This document shows, in pieces, positions 42,564-58,866 of a stretch of DNA of 64,000 bases. Position numbers and translations under genes: made by a program. Origin of the DNA: Sediminispirochaeta smaragdinae DSM 11293. GTDB lineage: Bacteria; Spirochaetota; Spirochaetia; DSM-16054; Sediminispirochaetaceae. The DNA lies in NCBI RefSeq assembly GCF_000143985.1, contig NC_014364.1, forward strand, positions 1,736,001-1,800,000. The letters are read 5' to 3'. Below the pieces are notes generated by a model that did not search any database, was not told the DNA's origin, and was given only the letters and a program-made list of their open reading frames with translations. The stretch's first letter is position 1, and each line of letters starts with the position of its first letter.

Positions 42564-43841
42564 TCATAGCGTTACTCCTGTCTGAGCAATCTGAAAAAAG
42601 TCCCTGGTACCGAAGTTTCCCGATTTCAAAGCAAAATTGATTCGACTTCCATCCTGTTTTGTATGCACTATCCAGGACACTCCAGGAGAAATTTCCGTTC
42701 CTACGCGGAAGGATTCAAGGCAAGAGGCGGTAACCACGGTGCCTGCACTCTCCCCGCCTGCTACGATAAAAGTCTCCGTTCCGTTTTCCAGCAGGACCTT
42801 CGTAAGCTGAGCGAAGAATCGTTCTATGAGTTTCGAGATGGATATGTCGGGGAATCGAACGTCCAGCAGCACTCGTTCTTCCACGGTCTTCGTAGCGTAT
42901 ATCATCGGAGCCAAAGCATCCGACTGATGGGCAATGATGAGCTGTGTCGTTGAAACACAGTAGGAATCAAAGTTTTTCACGCATTCTTCAACGGAGACAT
43001 TAAGGCAAAATCCTCCTAAGCCTTTGTAATACGCCACTTGTTCGTTTGTCGCTTCGGAGCACGAGCCGGAGATGATAACCGCACTCCCGCGCTCGAAAGC
43101 CAAGCTCTCTTGAGAGCTGGCTTTGTTGGGGGAGCCCTTTGCTGCGGCGATTTCCCCGACCAGACCTGACCCTCCCGTGAGGAATTTCATCGAAGAAAAG
43201 GATTCTGCCAGTACCCGCAGATGAGAGTCGTTAAGCGTATCCGGGATGATATAGCGAGTTCTCTGTGCTCGTGCCTGGTTGATGCGATTGCTGATGAGGC
43301 CGGGACCTTTGTCTATTTCTTCGGCATATATGTGGGTGATGTTCTGCGATTGAAACTGTCCGTACATAAGTTCGGGAAGGTAGCTTTTGGTCATCGGAGT
43401 GATCGGATGAAATCGCATCGGCGAGTCTTCTATCAATTGATTCCCGACAAATACATACCCCTTATACACAGTACGTCCGTTCACCGGCAGTGCAGGGCAG
43501 ACAACCGTAGTGTCGACATGCAGGTAGTCCATAATTGCATCCGTCACCTGCCCGATATTACCCTTTTCCGAGGAATCAAATGTGCTGCAATATTTGTAGT
43601 AGTACGTTGTACATCCGGCCCTTTCCAGTTGCTTTACGGCTTGTAAAGCCTGTTTAACGGCCCTGTCTGCAGGACATGATCTGATTTTGAGGCACATAAC
43701 GACGGCATCAATCCGAGGATCCGATATATCGCTGAGAGCAGGAACACCATTGAACAAGTATGTCTGCATTCCATTTTTCTTTACAAAACCTGCCGCATCC
43801 ACAGCTCCTGTGAAGTCGTCGGCAATTATGCCTAACTCCAT
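42564..43841 (-). CDS. DUF1537-family acid-sugar kinase (locus 1)
   Basis: A 425-residue member of the four-carbon acid sugar kinase family. The N-terminal domain begins 'MELGIIADDFTGAVDAAG'. The C-terminal nucleotide-binding domain has 'VIISGSCSEATNEQVAYYKG' and the glycine loop 'FIVAGGESAGTVV'. Characterised members phosphorylate D-threonate, L-threonate or D-erythronate with ATP. AAAGGAGG sits 6 bases before the ATG at 43841; an in-frame start 42 bases upstream would lie ahead of the predicted transcription start. Unlike known pathways there is no PdxA2 or aldolase partner here; it heads an arabinofuranosidase/ABC operon. Confidence 0.88.
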   Translation of the reverse strand: MELGIIADDFTGAVDAAGFVKKNGMQTYLFNGVPALSDISDPRIDAVVMCLKIRSCPADRAVKQALQAVKQLERAGCTTYYYKYCSTFDSSEKGNIGQVTDAIMDYLHVDTTVVCPALPVNGRTVYKGYVFVGNQLIEDSPMRFHPITPMTKSYLPELMYGQFQSQNITHIYAEEIDKGPGLISNRINQARAQRTRYIIPDTLNDSHLRVLAESFSSMKFLTGGSGLVGEIAAAKGSPNKASSQESLAFERGSAVIISGSCSEATNEQVAYYKGLGGFCLNVSVEECVKNFDSYCVSTTQLIIAHQSDALAPMIYATKTVEERVLLDVRFPDISISKLIERFFAQLTKVLLENGTETFIVAGGESAGTVVTASCLESFRVGTEISPGVSWIVHTKQDGSRINFALKSGNFGTRDFFQIAQTGVTL

Positions 43842-43866
43842 TGTCTGCCTCCTTTGTTTTGCATAA

Positions 43867-43882
43867 AGCAACTGTTGTGCCA
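43867..43882 (-). promoter_or_regulatory. Sigma-54 promoter of the arabinoside/acid-sugar kinase operon
   Basis: Read on the minus strand, TGGCAC-AACAG-TTGCT matches the sigma-54 consensus (TGGCAC-N5-TTGCW) at every position. With the GC at -12 the start falls at about 43856, so the mRNA begins one base before the AAAGGAGG ribosome site at 43855-43848. Confidence 0.9.
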
Positions 43883-43991
43883 ATAGTTTTCATGGATGAG
43901 GAATTTTATATAAAAAGTTTTATTCTTTTGTTTTGTAAAGAATTAACAATTACACCGGAAAAGTGCTTTGCATTGTGTTGTAAGGGAGGTG

Positions 43992-44034: not shown

Positions 44035-45912
44035 CTACGAAAGGTTGTATTTTTGCAGCTTTCTGTACAGAGTTGTTCGATCGATGCCCAGGGCATCCGC
44101 AAGCGCCTGTCTCGTGGGATACATGGGAAGAGCTTCGATGAGTTTTTCGCGCATCAGCATATCTTCCATCTTCATCGCTTGAGATGGTTCTTCCCAACCT
44201 GACGAACCGAGACAAAGGCGCAGATCTTCTTTATCAATATCCTTTTTCTGTACGATGACCGACAGACGTTCGCATATGTTTCTCAGCTGCCGAATATTTC
44301 CGTCCCAGCCATATCGAAGCAACAATGAACTGCATTCAGGAGAAAACCGATGCATATACCGATTATTTCTTTTGTCGAACAAATTCAAATAATGGTTTGC
44401 CAGTAAAAGAATATCATCGCCCCGTTCTCGCAGACTCGGAATATTGAGTCTGAGCACATCCAAGCGGTAGAAAAGATCTTTTCGGAACGTCCCCTCTTTT
44501 ACCATGATCTCCAGATTCTTATTTGTTGCGGCTATGATTCTGATATTGACAGGGATGACGGAATCGTCTCCGAGCCTCATGATTTCCCGTTCTTCCAGCA
44601 CCCGCAGCAGGCGGTTCTGCATAGGCTCGCTGATCTCTCCTATCTCATCCAGAAATATGGTACCGTTATGTGCCAGCTCAAACAGACCTACCTTTCCGCC
44701 TTTTGTTGCGCCGGTAAAAGCACCGTCGACATAACCGAACAGTTCGCTCTCCAGCAGGGACTCGCTGAGCGCCGCACAATTAATCGCCACAAAAGGGCCT
44801 GCACCCCGCATGCTCATATTATGGATACTCTGGGCAAAGAGCTCTTTACCTGTTCCTGTTTCTCCGAATAAAAGAATATTTGACTCCGTAAGGCTGTAAT
44901 AACGAGCCAAATCGATTACTCGAAGTAGGGGGGGGCTTTTCCCTATGATATCCTGAAAATGTGCCTTGGCAATATGTCCCTTCGCCCGCGTCTGCTTACG
45001 GATTGAAAACTCCATCCGCTGAATCTCAGATACTTTCTGAAAGGTAACGATCGCTGCCGTATAGACGTTATCAACGGTTATTGGAGAAACATGTGCAATG
45101 ACTTTTATGTCATGAATGGTAAGGATGATATCCTCCATTTTCTGAGAAAAATTTCCGGATTTCTTATCAAGTAATTCGGGGCAGGTCGTCGAAATCGGTT
45201 TTCCAATGACTTGACTGTAGGGACATCTGAACAGGAGTTCCGCATCATGATTGTAAATGGTGATGCTGTTTGTATCGTCGAGGGCGATTACGGCCTGATT
45301 GACATTTTCTAATAATGCCTTAAACCGTTGTACCATGATTTGGTTTTCGCGATTTGCGTCAAATACACGATAGGCTTCAAGTATTGAGCTTTTGATGCTC
45401 TCTTTACCCATTTTTATCAGCACTGCAGGAAGGTGTCGTTTCGCTGCATAGGAATAGACGCGTTCTCCGCATATTATGGCGCCGACGCCGTCTTCTTCGG
45501 CTTTCTCAATGCAGGGAATAATCTCGGATTCTTCACGAAAACTGTATCCGACGATATTGGGAAAGTTCCCCGAATCAATAACGAAGGATTCATAATTCTC
45601 ACTGTCTGCGGTGATAAAGGCAATTTTTCTTGCATGGAATGTCTGAAAGGCTTCATTTGCAGCATGGATGATGTCATATCCGCTCATCGGAATTTCAATA
45701 AGTGTCACCCCTCTGTGCAACTCCTGTAACGTATATGCCATGTATCCGCGTGCAATAATAATCTGTCCTGTGAAATCAATATTTACGGCTTCTTCAAGCG
45801 TGGGACATTTTATGGAAAAATCAAACATCCGTTTATTGGGAAGATTATTATATACTTCCGACACTTTTGGGATGAGACTGGATGACGGAACGAGAAAAAC
45901 AATTGACGACAT
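44035..45912 (-). CDS. Sigma-54-dependent activator with PrpR-type sensor (locus 1)
   Basis: A 625-residue enhancer-binding protein. Residues about 1-185 form a PrpR_N sensor, about 195-300 a PAS domain ('QAVIALDDTNSITIYNHDAELLF'), and about 325-555 the AAA+ domain with Walker A 'GETGTGKELF', the sigma-54 contact loop GAFTGA ('YVDGAFTGATKGG') and Walker B 'GTIFLDEIGE'. The C-terminus is a Fis-type helix-turn-helix ('RQALADALGIDRTTLYRKL'). The ATG at 45912 has AAAGG about 9 bases upstream. It lies directly upstream of the paired dyads and sigma-54 promoter of the kinase operon, its obvious target. Confidence 0.92.
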   Translation of the reverse strand: MSSIVFLVPSSSLIPKVSEVYNNLPNKRMFDFSIKCPTLEEAVNIDFTGQIIIARGYMAYTLQELHRGVTLIEIPMSGYDIIHAANEAFQTFHARKIAFITADSENYESFVIDSGNFPNIVGYSFREESEIIPCIEKAEEDGVGAIICGERVYSYAAKRHLPAVLIKMGKESIKSSILEAYRVFDANRENQIMVQRFKALLENVNQAVIALDDTNSITIYNHDAELLFRCPYSQVIGKPISTTCPELLDKKSGNFSQKMEDIILTIHDIKVIAHVSPITVDNVYTAAIVTFQKVSEIQRMEFSIRKQTRAKGHIAKAHFQDIIGKSPPLLRVIDLARYYSLTESNILLFGETGTGKELFAQSIHNMSMRGAGPFVAINCAALSESLLESELFGYVDGAFTGATKGGKVGLFELAHNGTIFLDEIGEISEPMQNRLLRVLEEREIMRLGDDSVIPVNIRIIAATNKNLEIMVKEGTFRKDLFYRLDVLRLNIPSLRERGDDILLLANHYLNLFDKRNNRYMHRFSPECSSLLLRYGWDGNIRQLRNICERLSVIVQKKDIDKEDLRLCLGSSGWEEPSQAMKMEDMLMREKLIEALPMYPTRQALADALGIDRTTLYRKLQKYNLS

Positions 45913-46254
45913 ATACAACACCTTTTGTTGAACTATAAAAGCACTATTTGACAGGACGTATGTATGATCCGAACGATGTCAAAAATAGGAAGCAAAGAAT
46001 TACCTCCGGGGTGCCTTTTTATGCAATAGTAGCATATTGAAAATTGCAATGCCAATTTGTATGTATAATTGCACATCGCAGCATGTAATGCATAGAGAAG
46101 CGTAATTTGAATTTATCAATGATTTCACTGATCATATAAACAGGAAGATCATCGCTACGATACGGCTCATCCTGGTGAAGAATCTTGGGAGGAGGTGAAA
46201 TTTCTGCTGTTTCCCTTTTTTTATGTTTATATCGATATTTTTGTATTTGTTTTT

Positions 46255-51302: not shown

Positions 51303-51386
51303 TAGACTGCAACGTGTTTCAGAACTTCAGTTATTATCTTTTGTTCAATAGTTTCTAAAACTTCTTTATTTGAATATAGTGTTTCT

Positions 51387-53315
51387 ATGGTGACAAACGC
51401 AAAAGAGATTATTTTGATTGCTCCGTACGACGATCTTTACGCTACTGCATCCAATTTGGTTGTATCAAAAGGATATCATCAAGTTGAAGTTGTCAAAGGC
51501 GATCTAGATGAAGGAATGAGCATTGCCACAGAGAAAATTGATCAAGGAGCAAAGGTTATTATCAGCAGGGGAGGTACATTCTCCCTCATCCAGAATGCGG
51601 TTAACGTACCGGTGGTAGAACTGCGAATCAGCGTGTATGACCTTATGGCAAGTTATCCCCAGCTCATGAAACTTGACGAACCCATTGCCTGCATAGGATA
51701 TAAAAATATTATTTCCGGTTTCGATCTGGTCAGTGATCTGGGGAAGAACGTCAAAACTATTGAAATCACCCATGAGTCGGATGTGGGGACCTTGATTAGT
51801 GAATGTGTGCGGGAGGGGATTACCGTTTTTGCAGGAGGTGCAATTGTCGGCCGTATTTGTGAATCCCGTGGACTGCGCTGCTACATTTGGGCCAGCAGCG
51901 AATATGCAATAATAGCTGCCATGGATGAGGCTCTGCGGATTCTCAATGCCTCCAAACGTGAAATAGAACTGGTCAATCGGTATCTTACCCTGACCGATTA
52001 TGTCCACGACGGCTTTATTGCCACAAATGAAGAAAATCAGGTTATCCTGATGAATGTTCCTGCACAGAAAATTCTTGAGGTAAACAAGGCCGATGTGGTG
52101 GGGCGATCCATAGAGTCTCTTTATCCCTACGGCAAGGTGATGGAAGAGATAGGACTGGGACGCCAGCTCATCGACGAAATTCGCACCCTGAACAACAAAT
52201 CTGTTACCATCAGTACCATCCCGATTCTTGTTAACCATGAACAACGGGGTTCTGTAACGGTTTTTCAAGAGATTGCAAAGCTACAAAACCGTGAGCAAAA
52301 AGTCCGCATGAAGTTGGTTGAGAAGGGGTTTACCGCAAAACATTCCTTCAATTCCATTTTTTATAAAAGCAAAAAAATCGAACATTGTATTGCCATTGCG
52401 AAAAAATTCAGCCTCTACGACTGTCCTGTTCTTATCGAAGGAAGTACGGGAGTCGGCAAGGAACTTTTTTCCCAGAGCATCCACAATTACAGCCATCGTA
52501 AAAACTCGCCATTTGTTGCTGTCAACTGTGCAGCCCTGTCTCACTCGCTTCTAGAAAGCGAGTTGTTTGGCTACGAGGAGGGGTCGTTTACCGGCAGCCG
52601 GAAAGGAGGCAAGGCAGGGGTCTTTGAGATGGCCCATCGTGGGACGCTTTTTCTCGATGAAATCAGTGAATTACCGGTAGACATGCAGGGGCGACTTTTG
52701 CGGGTCATTCAGGAGCGCGAAGTGGTCCGTCTTGGTGGTGATAAGGTAATCCCTCTTGATGTTCGGCTGGTCTGCGCGACAAATAAAGATTTGCGGCAGC
52801 TTGTGGAAGAAGGATTATTTCGCAGAGATTTGTTGTTTCGCATTAATACGCTCCGTTTTCGTGTCCCTCCCCTAAATGAACGACCGGCTGATATTCCCGT
52901 GTTGGCACAAAAATTTCTGGAACGGTACAATCTCCAGTACGCAAAGGATATCAAAGGATTTACTTCAGAGGCCCTTGATTTCTTGGTGCACTATCATTAT
53001 GCGGGTAATGTTCGTGAACTACGCGGTATTGTGGAGCGTTCGGTCATCCTCTGCGAGGGGCGCCTGATTGGCCGCAGTGATGTTCTTTTCGATTTTGATG
53101 AAGATGCTGAACCTCCCGTCGTTTTGGAAAAGCCTGAAGCCATCGAAACCATCGCTGCTTCCGGCATGAGCCTGAGGAAGCTTGAGCAGTGGTACGTGCA
53201 GCAGATATTCGAGCAGACAGGCAAGTCCCAAGAGCAGACCTGTAAAATTCTTGGTATATCCCGTACGACCCTCTGGAAGAAGCTGAAGGAATCCGTCGAT
53301 ATGTTTAATATCTAA
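51387..53315 (+). CDS. Sigma-54-dependent activator with PrpR-type sensor (locus 2)
   Basis: A 642-residue paralogue of the activator at 44035-45912. PrpR_N sensor at about 1-190 ('EIILIAPYDDLYATAS'), PAS at about 205-300 ('VHDGFIATNEENQVILMN'), AAA+ at about 325-555 with Walker A 'GSTGVGKELF' and Walker B 'GTLFLDEISE', and a C-terminal Fis-type helix-turn-helix ('EQTCKILGISRTTLWKKLKE'). The sigma-54 contact loop reads GSFTGS instead of GAFTGA. The ATG has no ribosome site; a TATAGT at 51375-51380 suggests a very short leader. The adjacent kinase operon is the likely target. Confidence 0.9.
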   Translation: MVTNAKEIILIAPYDDLYATASNLVVSKGYHQVEVVKGDLDEGMSIATEKIDQGAKVIISRGGTFSLIQNAVNVPVVELRISVYDLMASYPQLMKLDEPIACIGYKNIISGFDLVSDLGKNVKTIEITHESDVGTLISECVREGITVFAGGAIVGRICESRGLRCYIWASSEYAIIAAMDEALRILNASKREIELVNRYLTLTDYVHDGFIATNEENQVILMNVPAQKILEVNKADVVGRSIESLYPYGKVMEEIGLGRQLIDEIRTLNNKSVTISTIPILVNHEQRGSVTVFQEIAKLQNREQKVRMKLVEKGFTAKHSFNSIFYKSKKIEHCIAIAKKFSLYDCPVLIEGSTGVGKELFSQSIHNYSHRKNSPFVAVNCAALSHSLLESELFGYEEGSFTGSRKGGKAGVFEMAHRGTLFLDEISELPVDMQGRLLRVIQEREVVRLGGDKVIPLDVRLVCATNKDLRQLVEEGLFRRDLLFRINTLRFRVPPLNERPADIPVLAQKFLERYNLQYAKDIKGFTSEALDFLVHYHYAGNVRELRGIVERSVILCEGRLIGRSDVLFDFDEDAEPPVVLEKPEAIETIAASGMSLRKLEQWYVQQIFEQTGKSQEQTCKILGISRTTLWKKLKESVDMFNI

Positions 53316-53317
53316 AC
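53303..53317. promoter_or_regulatory. Activator site 1 (distal) of locus 2
   Basis: GTTTAATATCTAAAC has perfect 5-base arms and is centred at 53310 (about -163 from the predicted start). It overlaps the activator's stop codon. Confidence 0.65.
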
Positions 53318-53321
53318 GAAT

Positions 53322-53336
53322 GTTTATATTCTAAAC
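53322..53336. promoter_or_regulatory. Activator site 2 (proximal) of locus 2
   Basis: GTTTATATTCTAAAC repeats site 1 with the same GTTTA/TAAAC arms, centred at 53329 (about -144). The two centres are 19 bp apart. Confidence 0.65.
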
Positions 53337-53446
53337 GTTTTTATGCACCTTCATATCAGCTATATACGGATGCTCTTTCGATTCAGAGCTATATTATTGC
53401 TTTATTTATAAGTAATTAACTATCTCTTAATGCCTCTGGCAAAAGT

Positions 53447-53462
53447 TGGCACTTATTTTGCT
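53447..53462 (+). promoter_or_regulatory. Sigma-54 promoter of the acid-sugar operon
   Basis: TGGCAC-TTATT-TTGCT matches the sigma-54 consensus throughout. With GC at -12 the start is predicted at 53473, only 3 bases before the kinase ATG at 53476. It is the only promoter candidate seen for the run of genes up to 62973. Confidence 0.9.
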
Positions 53463-53475
53463 TTGATTTACTATC

Positions 53476-54720
53476 ATGATCATCATTGCAGACGACCTTA
53501 CTGGAGCGAACGATACAGCTATCCAATATCACAATAGCGGTATTTCCACCATTGTTGGTATCCGACCTCAATTGGATATTACTACCGATAGATTTGCAGA
53601 ATACGAAGTGATCGCCGCCAACACCGACAGCCGTTCCATGTCCGTTCATGATGCATATGAAACGGTGTATCGAATAACAAAAAGTTATCATGAACTGCGA
53701 CAATCGGATACGATCTACAAGAAAGTTGATTCTGTACTTCGGGGAAACCCTGGCGCCGAGCTTGCTGCAGCTATGGATGCCATTGGCTGTAAGCTTGCCT
53801 TTGTTGCTCCTGCATATCCTGAAAACAACAGGATTGTTCAGGATGGAATACTTCATGCGGGAGATGACTCTTTTGCTGCCGTGGGCCTTTTTTCCGAACA
53901 GATGAATCACAAGGTAGAAGGAGTACCCCATACACGTGTCGCCATGGATCTCGACCATCTGACGGACTATCTTCTGCATCGCATCCGGCAGGGAGGAGAA
54001 GTATTTGTCTTTGATAGCAGCACCGACGAGGATTTGAGCCGTATTTATCAAGCGACAAAACGCATTGCTGCTCAGAAAATCCTTTGTGGCAGTGCGGGAC
54101 TTGCCCGGTTTGTCGGAAAGGATATAGCCAGCAATCAACCGCAAACGGATGTCGTAATCCCCCATACACCGAATGATATTGTTTTGGTTGTTGCTGGAAC
54201 CCGTCACAGTACCACCAGGATGCAGATCTCTTCTGCGGCCCGACACTATCGGGAACCGATCATCCAGTATGATGGTTGTTGTGAAGCATCGTTTGAAAAG
54301 ACTCTTGCGGAGGCCCAGCGGCACATCGGGACAGGTTCTTCGGTTATTTTTATTGCCGTTGCTGGGCTGTTTCGTGATTTTACCGTCAGCCAGAGGGAAA
54401 GCAGTGAACAATACTCGCTTGCGCGTACTATTTCTGCCAATCTTGGCAGAATAGTGAGAGATCTATATGTCAGATATACGGTCAAGGGCATTATCCTCAC
54501 CGGCGGGGATACCGCCTTGCAGGTAGCCCAGTCCCTGGACGCATACGGTATAGAGCCTTTGTTTGAGGTTGCTGCCGGTGTTCCCCTGGGGAAGCTTATA
54601 GGTGGTCGGGCCGAGGGCCTGCTTGTGGTAACAAAATCTGGCGGCTTTGGCTCGGAACATGCCATCGCCGACAGCATTGCCAGTATCCTGAATCACAGTG
54701 AACAGGAACAGGCGCAATAG
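53476..54720 (+). CDS. DUF1537-family acid-sugar kinase (DtnK-like, locus 2)
   Basis: A 414-residue four-carbon acid sugar kinase. The N-terminus 'MIIIADDLTGANDTAIQ' is the family's conserved start, and an in-frame TGA at 53464 rules out upstream starts. The substrate domain has 'YKKVDSVLRGNPGAEL', and the ATP domain ends with 'GIILTGGDTALQVAQSL'. With pdxA2 two genes later it fits the D-threonate type pathway (kinase then 4-phosphate dehydrogenase to dihydroxyacetone phosphate), though another acid sugar is possible. No ribosome site precedes the ATG. Confidence 0.9.
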   Translation: MIIIADDLTGANDTAIQYHNSGISTIVGIRPQLDITTDRFAEYEVIAANTDSRSMSVHDAYETVYRITKSYHELRQSDTIYKKVDSVLRGNPGAELAAAMDAIGCKLAFVAPAYPENNRIVQDGILHAGDDSFAAVGLFSEQMNHKVEGVPHTRVAMDLDHLTDYLLHRIRQGGEVFVFDSSTDEDLSRIYQATKRIAAQKILCGSAGLARFVGKDIASNQPQTDVVIPHTPNDIVLVVAGTRHSTTRMQISSAARHYREPIIQYDGCCEASFEKTLAEAQRHIGTGSSVIFIAVAGLFRDFTVSQRESSEQYSLARTISANLGRIVRDLYVRYTVKGIILTGGDTALQVAQSLDAYGIEPLFEVAAGVPLGKLIGGRAEGLLVVTKSGGFGSEHAIADSIASILNHSEQEQAQ

Positions 54721-54741
54721 CGTAAAGGAGAAGTGAGTTTT

Positions 54742-55893
54742 ATGACTTGTGCAATTCAGATTCCTTCAAGTATCCATGCTGGGAAGGGGAGCATTGATAC
54801 CCTTTCCGAAATTATAGAAAGAGATTCGGTTAAACGTATCGTCTTGTTCACCGACAAGGGAGTCAGAAATGCCGGCTTGTGCGAACGAGCTCTTTCAATA
54901 TGCAATGCTCACAAGGTCGAATATCAGATTTTTGATGGAATTGCCGCTGAGCCCTCCGTACAGGATGTCGATAGGGTCATACAGGCTGCCTCTGATGTCA
55001 ACGCAGATCTTCTGCTCGCCATTGGTGGTGGATCAGTCATGGATACTGCCAAGTTGGCCTCTGTTCTTATAGGCGCTTCCTATACTTTGCAGGATCTACT
55101 GCGTGACGCCTCGCAGGCTAGAAAGATGATACGCAGTATCATGGTTCCCACCACCTGCGGAACCGGGTCGGAAGCCACCTGCAATGCGATTGTGGCCATT
55201 CCCGAGGAGCGTTCCAAAAAGGGTATTGTAAATACTGTCATGATTCCCGATGAAGTCATTCTTGACGTCAACATGATTGCCCGACTGCCCAAAGGCAGCA
55301 TTGCGGCCACGGGAGTGGATGCCCTTGCCCATGGAATAGAGTGTTATACCTCCAAGAAGGCCACGATGCTTTCGAATATCTATGCCCTGGCATGTGTAAA
55401 ATTAATCTTTTCCAGTATTGAACGTGCATATGTTGATCCGGATGCTTTTGAAGCAAAGATGCATATGATGCTTGGAGCCTTCTATGGAGGGATTGCCATT
55501 ACGGGGAGCGGGACGACGGCGGTTCATGCCCTGTCCTATCCACTGGGAGGGAAATACCATATTCCACACGGTGTTTCCAATGCAATGTTATTCGCTCCCG
55601 TCATGGCTTTTAATCGCGACGCCTGTGTCCAGCAGTTAAGTGAAATTTGTGATGCCGTCAATCCCCATATGGCTTCGGCCTCTTGTGACGAGAAGTCTCT
55701 TTATGTTGTGGATCGTATAGCCCAGGTCGTCAAGAACACCGAGATCCCCGTCAGCCTGGAGAAATTCGGTATTACTACGGAGGATATAGATTCCCTGGTA
55801 ACGGCGGGAAGCCAGCAGCAGCGGCTTCTTGTCAATAATCAGAAAGAGCTGAGCCTTGATGATATCCGATCCATCTACCAACAGGTATTATAA
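54742..55893 (+). CDS. Iron-containing alcohol dehydrogenase
   Basis: A 383-residue group III dehydrogenase. The metal site is visible as Asp in 'VILDVNMI' and His in 'GVDALAHGIE', 'TTAVHALSYPLGG' and 'HIPHGVSN'; the NAD loop is 'LLAIGGGSVMDTAK'. The ATG at 54742 is preferred: AAAGGAG lies 11 bases before it, versus 2 bases before a GTG at 54733. In this operon it may reduce or oxidise a hydroxy-aldehyde or acid-sugar intermediate. The stop overlaps the pdxA2 start (TAATG). Confidence 0.88.
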   Translation: MTCAIQIPSSIHAGKGSIDTLSEIIERDSVKRIVLFTDKGVRNAGLCERALSICNAHKVEYQIFDGIAAEPSVQDVDRVIQAASDVNADLLLAIGGGSVMDTAKLASVLIGASYTLQDLLRDASQARKMIRSIMVPTTCGTGSEATCNAIVAIPEERSKKGIVNTVMIPDEVILDVNMIARLPKGSIAATGVDALAHGIECYTSKKATMLSNIYALACVKLIFSSIERAYVDPDAFEAKMHMMLGAFYGGIAITGSGTTAVHALSYPLGGKYHIPHGVSNAMLFAPVMAFNRDACVQQLSEICDAVNPHMASASCDEKSLYVVDRIAQVVKNTEIPVSLEKFGITTEDIDSLVTAGSQQQRLLVNNQKELSLDDIRSIYQQVL

Positions 55894-56942
55894 TGAAGAG
55901 TGAACTGTATGAGAGGCCAATTCTTGGTATCACCATGGGAGATCCCGCCGGTTGCGGTCCGGAAATCACCGTAAAAGCGCTAAGAAATAAAGAGATATAT
56001 GACATGTGCCGTCCCCTGGTTGTGGGCGACAGTAAAATGTTTGAAGATTCAATAAGAATACTAAAGGAAAAAAAGATCAAGGTTCGCAGGGTATCCTTGG
56101 TTGAAGATGCAAGGTTCGAATACGGGACCATCGATGTATATCATCTCGACCTTGTAGACATGTCACAGTTTCAGTACGGAAAGGTCAGTGCCATGTGCGG
56201 TGAGGCGGCTTTCCAGTGTGTCAGGACGGTCATAGAACTGGCATTGGCGGGAAAAATTGATGGTACGATAACGAATGCCCTGAACAAGGAGGCCCTTAAC
56301 CTGGCCGGACACCACTACAGCGGTCATACCGAAATCTATGCCGATTTTACCAACACGAAAAAGTACACCATGATGCTGGCGCATGAAGATCTTCGGGTGG
56401 TTCATGTTTCTACCCATGTTGCATTACGCCGGGCCTGTGATCTGGTGAAAAAAGAACGTATCTACGATGTAATCAAGATAGCCCACAACGCCTGCAGACA
56501 ATTGGGAATTGCGGAACCCAGGATTGGTGTTGCAGGCCTTAATCCCCATTCCGGAGAAAACGGGCTTTTCGGCACCGAAGAAATTGAGGAAATTATTCCC
56601 GCCATCAAACAGGCTGCGTCGGAGGGGTTCAATGTAGAAGGACCGGTACCTCCCGATACCATTTTTTCAAAGGCCCGGGGAGGCTGGTACGATATCGTCG
56701 TGGCCATGTACCATGATCAGGGACATATTCCCCTGAAGGTGGTCGGATTTGTGTATGACAGGGAAGCCCAGAGATGGGGTTCTGTCAGCGGAGTGAACAT
56801 CACCTTGGGACTGCCCATCATAAGGGCCTCTGTTGATCACGGTACGGCCTTTGATACGGCGGGCAAAGGCATTCAGAACGAAGTCAGTTTAACCAATGCT
56901 ATCCGGTATGGAATGCAGTTGGTTCGAAATAAAGATAAATAA
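55893..56942 (+). CDS. pdxA2: PdxA2-type 4-phospho-acid-sugar dehydrogenase
   Basis: A 349-residue PdxA-family enzyme. Metal-binding histidines are in 'YSGHTEIYAD', 'AMYHDQGHIPLKV' and 'VDHGTAFDTAGKG', and the N-terminus is 'LGITMGDPAGCGPEI'. PdxA proper makes vitamin B6, but members next to DUF1537 kinases oxidise 4-phospho-D-threonate or -erythronate and decarboxylate it to dihydroxyacetone phosphate. The operon context supports the second role. Confidence 0.88.
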   Translation: MKSELYERPILGITMGDPAGCGPEITVKALRNKEIYDMCRPLVVGDSKMFEDSIRILKEKKIKVRRVSLVEDARFEYGTIDVYHLDLVDMSQFQYGKVSAMCGEAAFQCVRTVIELALAGKIDGTITNALNKEALNLAGHHYSGHTEIYADFTNTKKYTMMLAHEDLRVVHVSTHVALRRACDLVKKERIYDVIKIAHNACRQLGIAEPRIGVAGLNPHSGENGLFGTEEIEEIIPAIKQAASEGFNVEGPVPPDTIFSKARGGWYDIVVAMYHDQGHIPLKVVGFVYDREAQRWGSVSGVNITLGLPIIRASVDHGTAFDTAGKGIQNEVSLTNAIRYGMQLVRNKDK

Positions 56943-56965
56943 GCATGAGAAAGAGGGTAGTGCAC

Positions 56966-57886
56966 ATGGCAAAATATTATCATGGAGTGATTCCTCCCAT
57001 TATTACTCCGGTCGATGAAAAAGAAAATGTTGATGAAAAGGGCTTTCGGGAATTGCTGAATCACTGTGTTGACCGCGGGCTGCACGGAATTTTTGTTGCG
57101 GGTTCCAATGGGGAAACCATGGCTTTGACGCAGGAGCAGCGTGACAACGCCATTCGCATAGCCGTCGACGAGGTCGGTTCAAAGGTCCCCGTTATGAGCG
57201 GTGTTATGGATACGAGTACCCGCCGTGTCATCGAGAACATCAAAAAGATGGAAGATTTTGGTGGTAAGTGTGCGGTCATCACACCCATTTTCTATGCCCG
57301 CCATACATCCCAGGATGAGACGGTGCGCCTGTTCGAAGAGGCTTCCAGGCAAACCAGTTGCGATCTAATGATCTACAATATTCCGATGTTTACCGGCCTG
57401 AAGCTTACTGCCGACACCGTTCTCAAACTTGCAAAGATTGATAAGGTCGTTGGCGTAAAAGATTCCAGCGGTGACTTCGGAGAGTTTCAAAAGGTGCTGC
57501 GGGTTTATGCCGACAATCCGAAGTTCTCCGTATTACAGGGATCTACCGCTGTTTCTGCCGGCAGCATGCTTGAAGGTGCGGATGGCTATGTTCCTTCCAT
57601 TGCTCCTCTTTTTCCCGAACTCTTTACCAAGATGTACGATTATGCCGTGGCCGGGAATATTGGGAAAACCCTTGAGCTGAATGCCATCGTTGCTGAAACC
57701 CAGAAGATTCTTGGATTATGCAAAAATGCCACTGCCTCCAATAAATTTGCATTGAGTCTTCTTGGCTTTACCCACAAGCGTGTCATTGCTCCCCAGGACG
57801 GTACGACCGAAGCGGATGAGCGTGCAATAACCAGCAAGGTAGACGAGGTCAATGGCCTGATCCGCAAGGCAGGGCTTATTCAATGA
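56966..57886 (+). CDS. Dihydrodipicolinate synthase/N-acetylneuraminate lyase family aldolase
   Basis: A 306-residue class I aldolase-type TIM barrel. The substrate-carboxylate motif is 'VAGSNGETMALT', the proton-relay Tyr is in 'DLMIYNIPMFTGL', and the Schiff-base Lys is in 'KVVGVKDSSGDF'. The ATG at 56966 follows GAGGG by 9 bases. Biosynthetic DapA is unlikely in this catabolic operon; cleavage or dehydration of a 2-keto acid sugar is more probable. It overlaps the next gene by 4 bases. Confidence 0.85.
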   Translation: MAKYYHGVIPPIITPVDEKENVDEKGFRELLNHCVDRGLHGIFVAGSNGETMALTQEQRDNAIRIAVDEVGSKVPVMSGVMDTSTRRVIENIKKMEDFGGKCAVITPIFYARHTSQDETVRLFEEASRQTSCDLMIYNIPMFTGLKLTADTVLKLAKIDKVVGVKDSSGDFGEFQKVLRVYADNPKFSVLQGSTAVSAGSMLEGADGYVPSIAPLFPELFTKMYDYAVAGNIGKTLELNAIVAETQKILGLCKNATASNKFALSLLGFTHKRVIAPQDGTTEADERAITSKVDEVNGLIRKAGLIQ

Positions 57887-58866
57887 GTACGGTTGTCCTG
57901 TCCCACGCCCTGTATGACCCCGGTATGCGTCTTCTCGAGCAAAACGGAATCGACGTTGTTATTCCTAATAACGGGAACAGCGACGATATTCTTGAAGATT
58001 TGCAGAAGGCCGACGGCTTCATTCTCAGAATAGGAAAGATTGATCGTAAAGCCATTGAGGCTTGTCCCGACCTGAAGGTCATCACAAGGCCGGGCGTCGG
58101 CGTGGATAATGTCGATGTACAGGCGGCCACAGAACATGGAATTCCTGTAGTCATCTGCCCGGCTGCCAACAGCCGGTCGGTGGCAGAGCATACTATTGCG
58201 CTCATGTTTGCCGCTTCAAAGAATTTGATCGAAAGCGACAGGGAAACCAGGAAGGGAAATTTCGGAATCCGCAATAAATATGCAGCGGTCGAGCTGAAGG
58301 ACAAAACCCTTGCCGTTTTGGGGTTTGGACATATTGGCCGGGAGGTCGCCTCCATGGCGGCGGCTCTGGGCATGAAGGTTGTTGCTTATGATCCCTTTCT
58401 CGATAAGCAGAAGGTTGAATCGATGGGGTATGGCCATGCCGGATCCCTGGAAGAGGCCGTCTCCGCCGGTGATTTTGTAACCCTGCACATGCCTTCCCTG
58501 CCGGAGACAAAAGGCATGATCAACAAGTCCGTTTTCAGCCAGGCAAAGGAAACCGCTTATTTCATCAACTGTGCACGCGGGGATATTGTCAACGAACAGG
58601 ATTTGTATGATGCCCTTGCCTCGGGATCGATTGCCGGGGCGGCCGTGGATGTGCTCAGCTTGGAACCGATGGAGGCCTCTTCGCCCCTGATGCGGCTGGA
58701 CAATTTTATCGTGACGCCGCACATGGCTGGACAGACTCGGGAGGCTACCACAACGATCGTAACCATGGCCGTTGAGGGAACGCTGGCCGTACTCAAGGGG
58801 GAAAAGTGGCCTCATGTCTGCAATCCCGAGGTGTACGGTCGTCAGGCGTGGAAGGATCGGCAATAG
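57883..58866 (+). CDS. D-2-hydroxyacid dehydrogenase
   Basis: A 327-residue NAD-dependent dehydrogenase. The Rossmann motif is 'LAVLGFGHIGREVASMAAALG', catalytic Arg is in 'YFINCARGDIVNEQ', and catalytic His is in 'FIVTPHMAGQT'. The family includes phosphoglycerate and glyoxylate/hydroxypyruvate reductases. In this operon it may recycle a 2-hydroxy or 2-keto acid formed from the substrate. Confidence 0.87.
   Translation: MSTVVLSHALYDPGMRLLEQNGIDVVIPNNGNSDDILEDLQKADGFILRIGKIDRKAIEACPDLKVITRPGVGVDNVDVQAATEHGIPVVICPAANSRSVAEHTIALMFAASKNLIESDRETRKGNFGIRNKYAAVELKDKTLAVLGFGHIGREVASMAAALGMKVVAYDPFLDKQKVESMGYGHAGSLEEAVSAGDFVTLHMPSLPETKGMINKSVFSQAKETAYFINCARGDIVNEQDLYDALASGSIAGAAVDVLSLEPMEASSPLMRLDNFIVTPHMAGQTREATTTIVTMAVEGTLAVLKGEKWPHVCNPEVYGRQAWKDRQ

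Follow-up and report, generated by a model that had tools for sequence, protein, structure and literature searches.

Leaderless mRNAs are abundant in the spirochaete Leptospira, for which about 440 mRNAs with a 5' UTR under 10 nt have been reported and the term itself covers leaders of 0-10 nt (PMC5243855); under a strict definition, transcription must begin on the start codon's own first nucleotide (PMC3616915). Such messages are bound by the 70S particle at an AUG that coincides with the 5' end or lies close to it (reviewed in PMC9031893), and the genes concerned have been linked to -10 elements of sigma-70 type, extended or not, lying beside the ORF (PMC4842269; PMC12340547). We find that a four-carbon acid sugar kinase gene of Sediminispirochaeta smaragdinae, located in a 64,000-nt window (bases 1736001-1800000 of the complete 4,653,970-base genome), is like the bacterial leaderless mRNAs of Leptospira, Deinococcus and Mycobacterium (PMC9031893) in carrying its AUG at or near the predicted 5' end with no Shine-Dalgarno (SD) sequence, but that the element adjoining its ORF is a sigma-54 -12 box, for which an activator is needed, rather than a -10 element. 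In its -24/-12 motif, its genomic rpoN (E = 1.3e-55), its adjacent AAA+ activator gene and its upstream repeats as candidate activator sites, the locus resembles known sigma-54 promoters served by bacterial enhancer-binding proteins. A predicted leader of 3 nt would make the kinase mRNA leaderless by the Leptospira definition, not by the strict one. The initial annotation had proposed a leaderless kinase mRNA from a sigma-54 promoter and had called such initiation unusual; the former holds as a prediction that relatives support, for a leader of about 3 nt and not zero, and for the latter, the open-access papers searched yielded no report of a sigma-54 promoter positioned so as to give leaderless initiation, but the case recurs and is not unique. 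What is new is the joining of two kinds of element that are each already known.

The activator gene and the genes of the putative operon are arranged as follows.

51387-53315, + strand: PrpR_N/AAA+/HTH_8 sigma-54 activator gene, directly upstream of the kinase
53476-54720, + strand: first cistron, lacking an SD, for the four-carbon acid sugar kinase (DUF1537, SBD_N/NBD_C)
54733-55893, + strand: Fe-dependent alcohol dehydrogenase (Fe-ADH), second cistron, ATG at 54742 with AAGGAG upstream
55893-56942, + strand: PdxA-family dehydrogenase
56945-57886, + strand: DHDPS-family aldolase/lyase, SD-led ATG at 56966
57883-58866, + strand: D-2-hydroxyacid dehydrogenase, named before an amidohydrolase gene that the operon also includes

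The kinase domains score at E = 2.8e-45 (SBD_N) and 2.4e-26 (NBD_C), the adjacent activator carries a Sigma54_activat domain (E = 1e-63), and 160 bases separate the activator gene from the operon start. In domain content and operon partners the kinase is like the D-threonate and 3-oxo-tetronate kinases (DUF1537) with PdxA-like dehydrogenases, but it falls below every specific equivalog cut-off (211.7 versus 450 bits for the D-threonate kinase model NF047819). The activator likewise shares the PrpR_N, AAA+ and HTH_8 architecture of PrpR (propionate) and PrdR but lies below both equivalog cut-offs (359.7 versus 499.2 bits for PrpR, TIGR02329); its position suggests that it regulates the sugar-acid operon. 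In the stretch 51375-51390, the ATG of the activator gene itself (51387) also lacks an SD, and a TATAGT that ends 6 nt before this ATG would set a sigma-70 start exactly on it. The activator mRNA may thus be leaderless as well; a good -35 was not detected for this element.

The elements around the start of the kinase gene are these.

53301-53337, + strand: two directly repeated 18-nt units, 19 nt apart, with a presumed role as activator sites
53372-53389, + strand: weak hairpin resembling a terminator, in the gap between the activator and kinase genes
53446-53462, + strand: sigma-54 -24/-12 promoter motif TTGGCACTTATTTTGCT, TTGGCAC-N5-TTGCT, an exact match to TGGCAY-N5-TTGCW
53464-53466, + strand: in-frame TGA that bars an upstream kinase start
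53473, + strand: predicted +1 (A53473)

In TTGGCACTTATTTTGCT the GG occupies 53448-53449 and the GC 53460-53461, the standard GG-to-GC spacing of 10 nt. Counting C53461 as -12 places +1 at A53473 with an error of about 2-3 nt, and the purines A53470 and A53476 lie close by; the kinase ATG is at 53476, giving the 3-nt predicted leader. The initial annotation had read the promoter this way and had argued from the TGA and the conserved N-terminus that this ATG is the start, and each of these points is borne out by the letters, with +1 a prediction from spacing. The next in-frame candidates come no earlier than codon 33, and a start there would cost the kinase the IADDLTGAND motif common to the aligned family members. 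Its remark that a ribosome site is missing also agrees with our scan: no SD-like 4-mer occurs in the 18 nt 5' of the ATG, whereas 47 of 56 ORFs in the window have one near a plausible start, as do 20% of random positions. The in-frame TGA, the conserved N-terminus and the absent SD together make ATG 53476 the only plausible common start codon, from which the predicted protein begins Met-Ile-Ile-Ile-Ala (MIIIADDLTGANDTAIQYHNSGISTIVGIR or its Met-processed form). A non-ATG start at ATC 53473 is conceivable only as a rare codon and is not favoured, and a short ORF from ATG 53430, considered as a coupling peptide, was rejected, as it has no SD and lies in another frame. The 5' end of the kinase mRNA is weakly folded (z = +1.1).

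We consider it probable, from these sequence features, that activator-dependent sigma-54 transcription yields a near-leaderless kinase mRNA on which the second gene is translated from an ordinary SD. The PrpR-like activator would bind the repeats at 53301-53337, close to where its own gene ends; each repeat is an inverted repeat, GTTTA-N5-TAAAC, some 110-145 bp upstream of the -24 element. The bound activator would contact sigma-54 RNA polymerase on 53446-53462 and open the promoter, and transcription would begin at A53473, within about 3 nt, as 5'-AUCAUGAUCAUC... Since the kinase AUG would then lie 0-6 nt from the 5' end, it would be recognised by leaderless-type initiation, with a 70S particle and initiator tRNA, instead of by SD pairing, and Fe-ADH, as the second cistron, would be translated through its own SD.

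Relatives of the kinase, drawn from 393 Spirochaetota genomes, a GTDB genome scan and 149 genomes of one spirochaete order, strengthen this reading. The ATG lies 0-5 nt from a predicted sigma-54 +1 in the window and at L024, L025, L028, L029, L040, L202, L052, L108, L205 and L207, with predicted leaders of 5 nt and no SD in the treponeme orthologs L024 and L025, 5 nt in L028, 3 nt in L108, 2 nt in L029, L052, L205 and the close relatives L040 and L202, and an ATG exactly at the predicted +1 (leader 0) in L207. With near-copies removed and both L040 and L202 counted, the predicted sigma-54 leaders of the kinases are 0, 2, 2, 2, 2, 2, 3, 3, 5, 5, 11, 13, 24, 28, 29, 87 and 138 nt. All ten short-leader kinases have ATG at the start position and none has an SD-like motif, versus 45 of 54 other kinase starts (Fisher p = 6e-7; 2e-6 with L040 and L202 merged), a contrast that is favoured at ambiguous loci by our having taken the SD-bearing start where present, as at L083, where the leader is 1 nt, or 13 nt with an SD, and which was counted as SD-led. 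About 17% of the other kinase starts also lack an SD. The scan covered -18 to -5 in DNA wherever the predicted +1 lay, which left short-leader genes free to score by chance (the background in the window being about 20%). That starts next to a predicted sigma-54 +1 lack an SD, and that longer-leader or site-less kinases mostly bear one, supports the leaderless interpretation.

The point at which sigma-54 transcription begins can shift by a few bases, and both A53466 and A53470 are available as initiating purines. Transcription might thus begin slightly further upstream (53466-53470), giving a leader of 6-10 nt that is short but not leaderless. We regard this as improbable: predicted leaders of 6-10 nt are absent among the relatives in the near-copy-reduced set, the ATG of L207 coincides with its predicted +1, and at the kinase even a 10-nt leader would contain no SD. 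Genes with 11-nt leaders have GGAG at the very 5' end, and the gap at 6-10 nt, at these small numbers, fits the idea that such lengths would suit neither leaderless nor SD-led initiation.

The motif itself is rare in the window, with two exact matches to TGGCAY-N5-TTGCW found versus 0.12 expected from shuffles, both directly 5' of DUF1537 kinases that themselves follow PrpR-type activators. Genome-wide, 12 exact sites compare with 5 for the reversed pattern, and the motif alone is therefore no proof; a genome of this size would hold about five matches by chance, and that before the kinase could be one of these, or a non-productive site, with the gene expressed by other means. This is very unlikely given the adjacent activator, the low expectation in the window and the recurrence of the same spacing in diverged orthologs. 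The place of the motif between a sigma-54 activator gene and an operon, with its recurrence in relatives, is stronger evidence for a promoter than the motif.

The second exact site in the window belongs to a paralogous operon and provides an internal control.

43867-43883, - strand: control sigma-54 site TTGGCACAACAGTTGCT, exact match, predicted +1 at 43856
42564-43841, - strand: control paralogous DUF1537 kinase, 15-nt predicted leader with AGGAGG
44035-45921, - strand: PrpR_N sigma-54 activator of the paralogous operon

Other sigma-54 sites of the genome with a plausible downstream gene likewise have leaders of 11-32 nt with an SD, in contrast to the roughly 3 nt and absent SD of the studied kinase; the 32-nt leader precedes a probable glutamine synthetase gene (named by eye). 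Predicted sigma-54 leaders in this genome thus tend to be short but SD-bearing, and the kinase is the exception. Two genes for sigma-70-family sigma factors (family assigned by eye) stand behind sigma-54 sites at L008 and L009 (near 1845846 and 1942301), with leaders of 11-12 nt that are nearly all SD, at the extreme 5' end.

The kinase could instead be translated chiefly from a longer mRNA, with an AU-rich leader on which initiation would need no SD; read-through from the activator gene, or a sigma-70 promoter within 53316-53446, would supply this mRNA, and the sigma-54 transcript would be minor. The intergenic region is indeed AT-rich, and the hairpin at 53372 that resembles a terminator (one found versus 0.1 expected) is weak. 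A search of this region for a sigma-70 promoter gave a sole match, which was rejected, as it overlaps the sigma-54 site and would start transcription 3' of the ATG. A longer mRNA would predict neither the repeated 0-5 nt spacing nor its link to SD loss, and the sigma-54 leader of the paralogous operon does bear an SD. This alternative is, in our judgement, unlikely, if somewhat less so than a start at 53466-53470, and we retain near-leaderless initiation from the sigma-54 promoter as the preferred reading.

A maximum-likelihood tree of the kinases places the short-leader genes in at least three parts and requires at least five label changes. One clade comprises the window kinase, L024, L025, L052 and L207, and a second L028, L205, L040 and L202, with L029 near; L108, from a Syntrophaceae genome, is a third placement. 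Two members of the second clade, L204 and L206, bear AAGG where an SD would lie, and no sigma-54 site was detected near them. The extension N-terminal to the ADD motif differs in length among the relatives but the promoter-to-ATG spacing is constant, which is what conservation of the spacing itself would predict. PrpR_N activators are encoded in nine of nine related genomes searched, adjoining the kinase in L134, L135 (divergent), L137, L052 and L207 and lying elsewhere in two treponemes and in G374, and palindromes comparable to the candidate activator sites occur upstream in L207 (ATGTTTCAATTAGAAACAT), L135 and L201 (GGTGA...TCACC type).

We then asked how general the layout is. In the 393 Spirochaetota genomes, TTGGCAC-N5-TTGCW is followed by an ATG at leader 1-5 in 70 matches, versus 74 with an ATG upstream of +1, which rules out a general enrichment of ATG just after strict sigma-54 sites and makes the layout gene-specific. 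Among sampled loci, ORFs of at least 100 codons begin at 11 of 30 with leader 1-5 versus 3 of 26 controls, and such ORFs without an SD-led start close downstream at 9 of 30 versus 0 of 26 (p = 0.002); the nine include the window kinase and the PdxA gene at L167. This pdxA (L167:1500-2680) lies directly behind a sigma-54 activator gene, with a predicted leader of 4 nt and no SD. In two spirochaete genomes, GAF-SpoIIE phosphatase genes (L153:1529-3031 and L154:1-1503) have predicted sigma-54 leaders of 1 and 4 nt, also with no SD. In five genomes of one spirochaete genus (L155, L157-L160) a stretch TTGGCACAAGRATTGCACATGCAGGRGTATATG is conserved, but its ATG opens no ORF, and it does not count as a leaderless case. 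These counts suggest that a short sigma-54 leader is a feature of certain genes, pdxA and the SpoIIE-type phosphatase included. On balance we lean towards a recurrent layout in which a sigma-54 -12 element abutting the ORF ties activator-gated transcription to leaderless translation, and which would have evolved or persisted in at least three DUF1537 operon clades (mostly Spirochaetota, one Syntrophaceae) as well as at pdxA and the SpoIIE-type phosphatase.

If sigma-54 promoters make leaderless mRNAs, activator- and ATP-gated transcription would become linked with a ribosome pathway that needs no SD and whose response to translation factors and stress is different. Annotation would be affected too, because starts within about 5 nt of a predicted sigma-54 +1 lack the SD that gene finders seek; the loci with predicted short-leader sigma-54 kinase starts, about ten, provide a comparative set. 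At one treponeme locus (L241; G291:C1 near 1481360, minus strand), a near-identical kinase promoter and the first five codons (MIILA) are kept and the kinase is gone; what follows MIILA is unrelated sequence that by eye resembles an integron attC site (TAACGC...GTTAGACGC).
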